DNA of 64,000 nt, taken from Cellulomonas palmilytica (GTDB lineage Bacteria > Actinomycetota > Actinomycetes > Actinomycetales > Cellulomonadaceae). The DNA lies in the NCBI RefSeq assembly GCF_021590045.1, contig NZ_CP062221.1, positions 372,001 through 436,000 of the forward strand, in the 5' to 3' direction. A program made the translations under genes and the position numbers. The notes under the pieces are model-generated. The model did no database searches and had not been told where the DNA came from. It saw nothing but the letters and a program-made list of their open reading frames with translations. This document shows positions 26,213-26,332 of this stretch, one piece after another. Each line of letters opens with the position of its first letter. The stretch's first letter is position 1.

Positions 26213-26332
26213 ATGTGCTACGCCGTCCGCTGCCCCCGCTGTCAGAAGGTCACCTGGGACGGGTGCGGCGAGCACGCCGCCGAGGTCATGGCGGGCGTCG
26301 CGGCCGACGACCGCTGCACCTGCCCCCGCTGA
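26213..26332 (+). CDS. 39-aa Cys-rich zinc-ribbon-like micro-protein
   Basis: A tiny protein of 39 aa with six cysteines (positions 2, 7, 10, 18, 35, 37) and a His at 21. It opens [20 protein letters not shown] and ends DDRCTCPR. The CPRC and CTC pairs plus the GCGEH segment could form a zinc ribbon or a thiol/persulfide-reactive cluster. It is preceded by a clear AGGAG and sits between a CstR-type operator and the CstR-like repressor gene, so it should be induced with it. No function is known to me. The reading frame, ribosome site and operon position make it a real gene despite its size. Confidence 0.72.

Follow-up and report, generated by a model that had tools for sequence, protein, structure and literature searches.

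A 39-residue Cys-rich micro-protein of Cellulomonas palmilytica as a very probable member of a CstR-type, persulfide-sensing regulon

In a 64,000-nucleotide stretch of the Cellulomonas palmilytica genome (this whole stretch is referred to here as the window), a short open reading frame (ORF) is flanked by a CstR-type operator on its 5′ side and a CstR-type repressor gene on its 3′ side. Its product is a Cys-rich micro-protein with six Cys (positions 2, 7, 10, 18, 35 and 37) and one His (position 21), and 62 bp separate its gene from the repressor gene that follows. The features of the region are collected in Table 1. An earlier reading made from the letters of the DNA alone (the sequence-only reading) had described a 39-aa protein with six Cys and one His, a clear ribosome site and a location between operator and repressor. 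Each of these points was confirmed, by the ORF translation, by an AGGAG 6 nt before the ATG, and by the 16-bp repeat on the 5′ side together with a PF02583 gene on the 3′ side. The 5′ neighbour on the same strand encodes a lipase-maturation-factor-like protein, and no connection between it and the micro-protein was seen. Rfam returned 0 matches at gathering scores in positions 24000-28500.

Table 1. Features of the C. palmilytica window around the micro-protein gene and its presumed regulon partner.
Feature	Position in window	Strand	Basis and remarks
Second perfect operator, ATACCCCCCGGGGTAT	15139..15154	.	Sequence match; TATGAT at 15152-15157; nine bases before the CoADR-Rhd start
CoA-disulfide reductase-rhodanese fusion (CoADR-Rhd / CoAPR-like)	15164..16870	+	568 aa; presumed second member of the same regulon
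Cd/Zn-family heavy-metal P-type ATPase	16957-18855	same as CoADR-Rhd	TIGR01512, TIGR01525; 86 bp 3′ of CoADR-Rhd
Lipase-maturation-factor-like protein	24684-26138	same as micro-protein gene	PF06762 + PF25179
CstR-type operator, ATACCCCAGGGGGTAT	26159..26174	.	Sequence match; inverted repeat ATACCCC-AG-GGGGTAT, fits ATACCn6GGTAT
TATGAT, -10-like element	26172-26177		Overlaps the operator
Ribosome-binding site AGGAG	26202..26206	+	Read from sequence
39-aa Cys-rich micro-protein gene	26213..26332	+	Window ORF translation from ATG (26213) to end of TGA (26332); homologues, alignment, pN/pS, model
CstR-type CsoR-family repressor	26395..26655	+	86 aa; PF02583, E 5.9e-24; C35 and C64, no His

The repressor carries a CsoR/DUF156 domain, and its only Cys or His residues are two conserved Cys, with none of the copper-ligand His. 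The other CsoR of this genome (G000:C1:614459) has C35, H60 and C64 and is followed, by eye, by a CopZ-like gene. Since the window repressor is Cys-only and the copper-type paralogue has H60, the former is of the CstR (persulfide) kind by sequence. Its best matches among the sequences of solved structures were 7mq1/7mq2 and 7mq3, which their depositors labelled as copper-sensing CsoR and which we take to be pneumococcal CstR structures. Similarly, in 80 named loci from actinobacteria (the top 80 among at least 589, and thus neither random nor independent) every one of the 41 CsoR-like neighbours was CstR-type, with two Cys and no copper-site His. A copper regulon was rejected on these grounds, and the operator-like repeat at the copper-type CsoR, which by eye has a longer spacer, also disfavours it.

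The operator consensus ATACCn6GGTAT is that of a sulfane-sulfur-sensing actinobacterial CsoR, as given in the available part of the source (PMC7533328). The C. palmilytica genome (3.83 Mb) contains four such sites, compared with 0 sites for the reversed control, and three perfect ATACCCCNNGGGGTAT sites. Two of the four fall in the window, one at the micro-protein promoter and the other at CoADR-Rhd, about 11 kb away. The third perfect site (G000:3204066) overlaps a tRNA-Gln gene and, from its sequence context, is probably a chance occurrence. Perfect 16-bp sites were seen to overlap the 5′ end of tRNA-Gln(CTG) in L127 (3502-3574), L185 (2041-2113) and L202 (2042-2114), and these overlaps in three genomes constitute a trap for operator-based regulon calls. 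A weaker ATACCn6GGTAT site (G000:C1:534339-534354; L129 3340-3355) lies closely 5′ of an HTH-like frame on the minus strand and, although it may belong to the regulon, was left uncounted, and the frames surrounding a two-mismatch site at 1813356 all lacked an assignment.

Comparative analyses were carried out on 39 genomes, C. palmilytica and 38 relatives, of which 25 carried homologues of the micro-protein (33 copies in total). The perfect operator was present in 22 of the 25 gene-positive genomes compared with 0 of the 14 gene-negative ones (Fisher p 4.5e-8, ignoring shared ancestry), and within the genus, C. palmilytica included, in 17/17 compared with 0/8. The gene-positive genomes without it were G030, G036 and G038; G036 also had no second CsoR-family gene. 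When the individual copies were considered, a perfect site was located at most 150 bp upstream in 13 out of 33 and at 1.7-2.2 kb upstream in 10 more. All 10 of the latter had a CoADR-Rhd match between operator and micro-protein gene, and in 8 of them (the exceptions being in G001 and G026) a CsoR-family gene followed the micro-protein gene on the same strand. In C. palmilytica the same genes form two separate units, and an operator precedes each of them. For the other 10 copies, one of which lies at a contig end, the 2.6 kb upstream contained no perfect operator, and three of the ten showed a near-match within 60 bp (L009, L010 and L029).

The 80 named loci (741,521 bases) held 76 ATACCn6GGTAT sites, distributed over 54 loci, compared with 0 for the reversed control. 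A site lay no more than 400 bp upstream of the fetched micro-protein match in 34 of these loci, or in 33 when other copies are taken for L073 and L076 (the L076 copy with CxC is missed by the pattern). With a looser operator count, 48 of 110 loci were positive, compared with 25 of 1,601 control windows taken from these loci. With an operator at its promoter and co-occurrence of gene and operator across genomes, the micro-protein is very probably a member of the CstR (persulfide-sensing) regulon. The ScCsoR site resembles copper-type CsoR and RicR sites, according to the available part of PMC7533328, so the operator alone is no proof of a sulfur signal; the argument for sulfur comes from the regulators, which have Cys only, and from the enzymes encoded nearby. 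In L164, L165, L166 and L169 (listed only as belonging to the same phylum) the operator-like repeat runs into the micro-protein ATG, suggesting leaderless messages under direct repressor control.

The genes around the micro-protein differed between loci. CoADR-Rhd was the commonest neighbour cluster, found in 32 of 110 loci (30 of them with short flanks) at a median distance of 74 bp and on the same strand in 27. Pfam confirmed one representative each of the CoADR-Rhd, TauE, MBL-rhodanese, DUF302, Rv2466c-like and thioredoxin clusters. The sequence-only reading had proposed looking for the pattern beside CstR/CsoR or rhodanese genes and for homologues at syntenic positions, and both were found: a CsoR-like gene, of CstR type, stood in the retrieved flanking sequence (at most 5 kb) in 40 of the 80 named loci, and CoADR, rhodanese, persulfide dioxygenase (PDO) and TauE genes were frequent. 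At least one of cstR, CoADR, PDO, rhodanese and TauE stood near the gene in 48 of the 80, and none in 32, some of which still carry the operator. As the gene order varies, the association with operator and neighbours survives rearrangement. The earlier placement of the gene inside the CstR operon thus holds at this locus, where it adjoins cstR, and does not extend to the many relatives in which it has its own operator or lies downstream of CoADR-Rhd. A CoADR match reaching the rhodanese domain (E<=1e-60) was present in 20 of the 39 genomes (one with an internal TGA), all 20 micro-protein-positive. This full-length form was missing from 5 of the 25 gene-positive genomes, and the micro-protein is therefore not solely a CoADR partner. 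When a rhodanese-fused persulfide dioxygenase was used as query, the C. palmilytica genome gave no match over its full length; the hits were rhodanese fragments and two incomplete matches of low similarity (35% and 40%) to the metallo-beta-lactamase part. In 6 loci (cluster c9, including L058 and L066) a gene for an Rv2466c-like mycothiol-dependent nitroreductase ends at or near the micro-protein start, at a median distance of 1 bp.

The micro-protein ORF is a real gene, and on this point there is hardly any doubt. All 30 fetched loci contained a short ORF with (M/V)C-x4-C-x2-C-x4-(W/Y)-x-G-C-G-x-H, the same pattern by which these ORFs were located; one starts with GTG. Relatives were also checked for stop codons, the other point on which the sequence-only reading could have failed; the short ORFs were open, and in the one tblastn match with a counted TGA (G025) it falls only at the end. 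Among 28 distinct coding sequences, pN was lower than pS in 349 of 378 pairs (mean pN 0.27, mean pS 0.45). A profile made from 23 of the short ORFs retrieved 5,357 relatives at E<=1e-3 (clusters at 90% identity). An alignment of 140 sequences, which included 120 taken directly from the profile search and not picked by pattern, showed M1, C2, C7, C10, G17, C18, G19, H21 and C35 to be invariant. The standard residue spacing was kept in 244 of 247 collected sequences, the remaining three (one false pattern match and two with N-terminal extensions) being excluded before counts were made. The locus sequences in this set of 244 were picked by a pattern requiring C2, C7, C10, G17 and C/A/S at position 18, so that their invariance at C2, C7, C10 and G17 is partly built in. 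Trp occupied position 15 in 240 of the 244, and K12, T14, G17 and G19 were also conserved residues outside the ligand set. Locus L076 harbours two copies: one, from 5001 onwards, has CxC replacing CxxC, and the other, at 1775 on the opposite strand, is standard.

No convincing family match for the micro-protein was obtained in Pfam or NCBIfam. All 120 relatives among the matches listed (of 5,357) lacked a Pfam domain, and at E<=0.01 the 140 aligned members gave only weak matches, 11 to RNA_pol_N (PF01194, best E 0.0022) and 2 to a zinc ribbon in Pfam, and 1 in NCBIfam. RNA polymerase subunit N/RPB10 has an N-terminal C-x2-C-G-K knuckle, which the micro-protein resembles; C18-G-x-H21 and C35 nevertheless set the micro-protein apart, and the PF01194 matches are too weak for a family assignment. 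In an even draw across the phylum the gene was present in at least 19 of 198 genomes (a lower bound, with 34 candidates scored in most genomes), and among the same-class families listed, f17 had it in 0/7 and f18 in 1/5 genomes. A protein search started from a distant member returned 5 relatives and no further lineage. Relatives were also encoded in one phage-collection record (MT835623.1) and three IMG/VR contigs (L214, L215 and L216). Among 60 listed plasmid records (of 64 matched), the match coincided with a hypothetical protein in 11 and with no listed gene in 47, and 2 were unannotated, as read from an incomplete gene table; this agrees with the earlier remark that the gene is easily overlooked by gene finders. 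A plasmid of Rhodococcus jostii RHA1 is one carrier of such a relative. Two database names, RNA polymerase subunit N (P0006) and lipoate-protein ligase B (P0016), both resemble misannotation.

The conserved residues include seven of ligand type: C2, C7, C10, C18, H21, C35 and C37, the last being replaceable by a His at 38 or 39. Position 37 was Cys in 164 of the 244 sequences, and 79 of the 80 others had His at 38/39, as CxGH in 68 and CxGxH in 11; one sequence had neither. Such an exchange is what a metal ligand typically shows, and it speaks against position 37 having a redox function alone. An AlphaFold2 model built with 140 sequences (mean pLDDT 91.9, pTM 0.58) predicted a beta-beta-alpha arrangement with strands at 3-6 and 13-16 and a helix at 22-26, in which C7-x2-C10 lies between the hairpin strands and C18-x2-H21 just before the helix. 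Treble-clef and zinc-ribbon fingers combine a CxxC knuckle on a beta hairpin with a second ligand pair at the start of a helix, and the predicted model has this layout. The model of a longer relative was weaker (pLDDT 74.8); its elements followed in the same order, and a short helix of low confidence was added at the C-terminus. Sequence searches of solved structures found nothing convincing, the hits being a cerato-platanin-like protein (E 0.026) and a venom protein (0.31), both chance-like. From this pattern of residues, the micro-protein probably binds a metal, presumably zinc, and possibly two zinc ions per protein. In the model, C2, C35 and C37/H38 could be either a second metal site or reactive thiols.

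The family reaches beyond bacteria. A search with a composed probe sequence retrieved 30 proteins, of which 19 bear fungal names (Penicillium, Fusarium, Hypoxylon and others) and the others without an organism name; the three fungal names that were looked up belong to Ascomycota. The complete C2-C7-C10-C18-H21-C35-C37 spacing was present in 17 of the 30, 16 of those fungal-named, while 11 had the second half only, some of these looking like gene models with an overlooked intron, and 2 neither half. A profile of 140 bacterial-type sequences scored the 17 full-pattern proteins at 58-70 bits. The full pattern together with these scores therefore indicates that the family spans bacteria and fungi. 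Four fungal gene models (P0140, P0147, P0148 and P0149) have an insertion after the CxxC half that resembles an unrecognised intron.

Related regulons have been studied in other bacteria. S. aureus is, besides E. faecalis, a Firmicute with a CstR-controlled cst-like operon. In E. faecalis, CstR regulates CoAPR, a CoADR-Rhd homologue, and both CstR Cys are persulfidated in cells, as stated in the available part of PMC9405070. The C. palmilytica genes share with these Firmicute operons a CstR-type dithiol repressor and a CoADR-Rhd/CoAPR, presumably also under CstR control in C. palmilytica; the available part of that source names rhodaneses and CoAPR in the E. faecalis regulon and makes no mention there of a Cys-rich micro-protein (PMC9405070). 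In S. coelicolor, ScCsoR, which has two conserved Cys, binds ATACCn6GGTAT and represses a persulfide dioxygenase gene, and polysulfide displaces it, according to the accessible portion of PMC7533328. The 16-bp operator and a two-Cys CsoR-like regulator, a sensor of sulfane sulfur in S. coelicolor, are common to both systems, and the four genes given in that portion encode CsoR, a persulfide dioxygenase, a rhodanese and a sulfite transporter, with no micro-protein named (PMC7533328). Judging from the matching sites and genes, the E. faecalis and S. coelicolor logic probably applies in C. palmilytica. TusA carriers (PF01206) resemble the micro-protein in being small sulfur-pathway proteins and differ from it in sequence; PF01206 matched neither the window micro-protein (E<=10) nor any of the 140 aligned members (E<=0.01). 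In some relatives, for example G011, G006 and G001, a TusA match directly follows the CoADR-like match in one open frame. TusA was found in 15 of 25 gene-positive and 9 of 14 gene-negative genomes, a distribution that is not complementary and therefore speaks against a simple TusA substitute, so that replacement of TusA is unsupported. The sequence-only reading knew of no characterised function, and our literature search on CstR, persulfide, Cys-rich small proteins and the motif strings, with subscription papers mostly outside it, found no study or description of the family. We regard the micro-protein as a new part of a regulon of known type and not as a new kind of system.

The explanation that we regard as best overall, without going so far as to call it likely, is a zinc-finger-like protein of the CstR regulon that may accept or relay sulfane sulfur, or serve CoADR-Rhd. 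In such a mechanism, a rise in persulfides would modify the Cys of CstR, which would leave the 16-bp operator, as is established for CstR and ScCsoR elsewhere. The micro-protein would be made together with CstR, and CoADR-Rhd in parallel through the matching operator. The zinc-binding micro-protein might then accept or relay sulfane sulfur at a free or loosely zinc-held cysteine, and the sulfur could be fed onward to CoADR-Rhd or to dioxygenase/rhodanese partners. The acceptor or relay role as such is a tentative assignment, preferred because the visible C. palmilytica regulon consists only of CstR, CoADR-Rhd and the micro-protein; in our judgement, an adaptor or a zinc buffer fits nearly as well. 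The proposal of the sequence-only reading, a dedicated thiol-, persulfide- or metal-handling peptide, gained support on the persulfide side from shared operators and co-occurrence and on the metal side from the Cys-to-His swap.

A non-catalytic adaptor, rather unlikely in our estimation, would be a zinc-finger subunit attached to CoADR-Rhd, PDO or some further enzyme of the regulon, which it would stabilise, localise or tune while carrying no sulfur itself. The frequent close CoADR-Rhd neighbour would suit such a role, as would the conserved K12, T14, W15, G17 and G19, which resemble a fold or binding surface, and a hydrophobic C-terminal tail seen in 75 of 244 sequences by a rough pattern, which in one relative was modelled as the short helix of low confidence. 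However, the neighbours vary by locus (CoADR, PDO, DUF302, thioredoxin, Rv2466c-like), some copies have none of those tested, and full-length CoADR-Rhd is absent from a fifth of gene-positive genomes. Somewhat weaker still, and unlikely, is a metallothionein-like metal buffer or zinc chaperone that captures or delivers zinc freed or trapped by persulfides and sulfide. The seven conserved residues that could act as ligands and the Cys-to-His exchange are compatible with it, and a Cd/Zn-family ATPase gene follows CoADR-Rhd in C. palmilytica, but no close relative of this ATPase was found in the other fetched loci, the one weaker match lying in the C. palmilytica copper region. Metallothioneins combine a very high Cys content with an absence of aromatic residues. 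The micro-protein is likewise small, Cys-rich and presumed to bind zinc; unlike them it has 6 Cys in 39 residues, a nearly universal Trp, conserved glycines, a confidently predicted compact fold and a persulfide-type operator, and identity with a metallothionein was rejected.

We consider it very improbable that the peptide is a feedback regulator acting on CstR, for instance by removing its sulfur and resetting repression. Its gene is directly 5′ of cstR here and adjoins cstR in several relatives, but half of the 80 named loci had no CsoR-like gene in the fetched flank and some cstR-less copies stand behind an operator of their own, just as an ordinary target would. A Cys-attenuator leader peptide has a run of Cys codons and no constraint on other residues. 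A Cys-responsive leader, to which the short Cys-rich ORF 62 bp 5′ of a gene with its good ribosome-binding site could point, or a chance ORF whose translation product has no function, is almost certainly wrong and was rejected, given the absence of a Cys-codon run, invariant non-Cys residues, pN below pS, copies without a downstream cstR and fungal relatives with the same pattern.

Beyond the preferred reading of a zinc-finger-like sulfur acceptor or relay, the micro-proteins might represent a new sulfur-handling class, a zinc-held carrier or sensor of sulfane sulfur only some 40 residues long, in which two metals might share a site with one bridging ligand, that would be a common persulfide-response adapter across Actinomycetota and retained in ascomycetes; we regard this wider idea as speculative and unlikely. 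Descriptions of persulfide-detoxification regulons comprise sensors, rhodaneses, dioxygenases, reductases and exporters. The micro-protein, often unannotated, stays with its operator through rearrangements of gene order. If the present interpretation is true, such regulons would gain a conserved, very small and probably metal-binding part that reaches as far as fungi.
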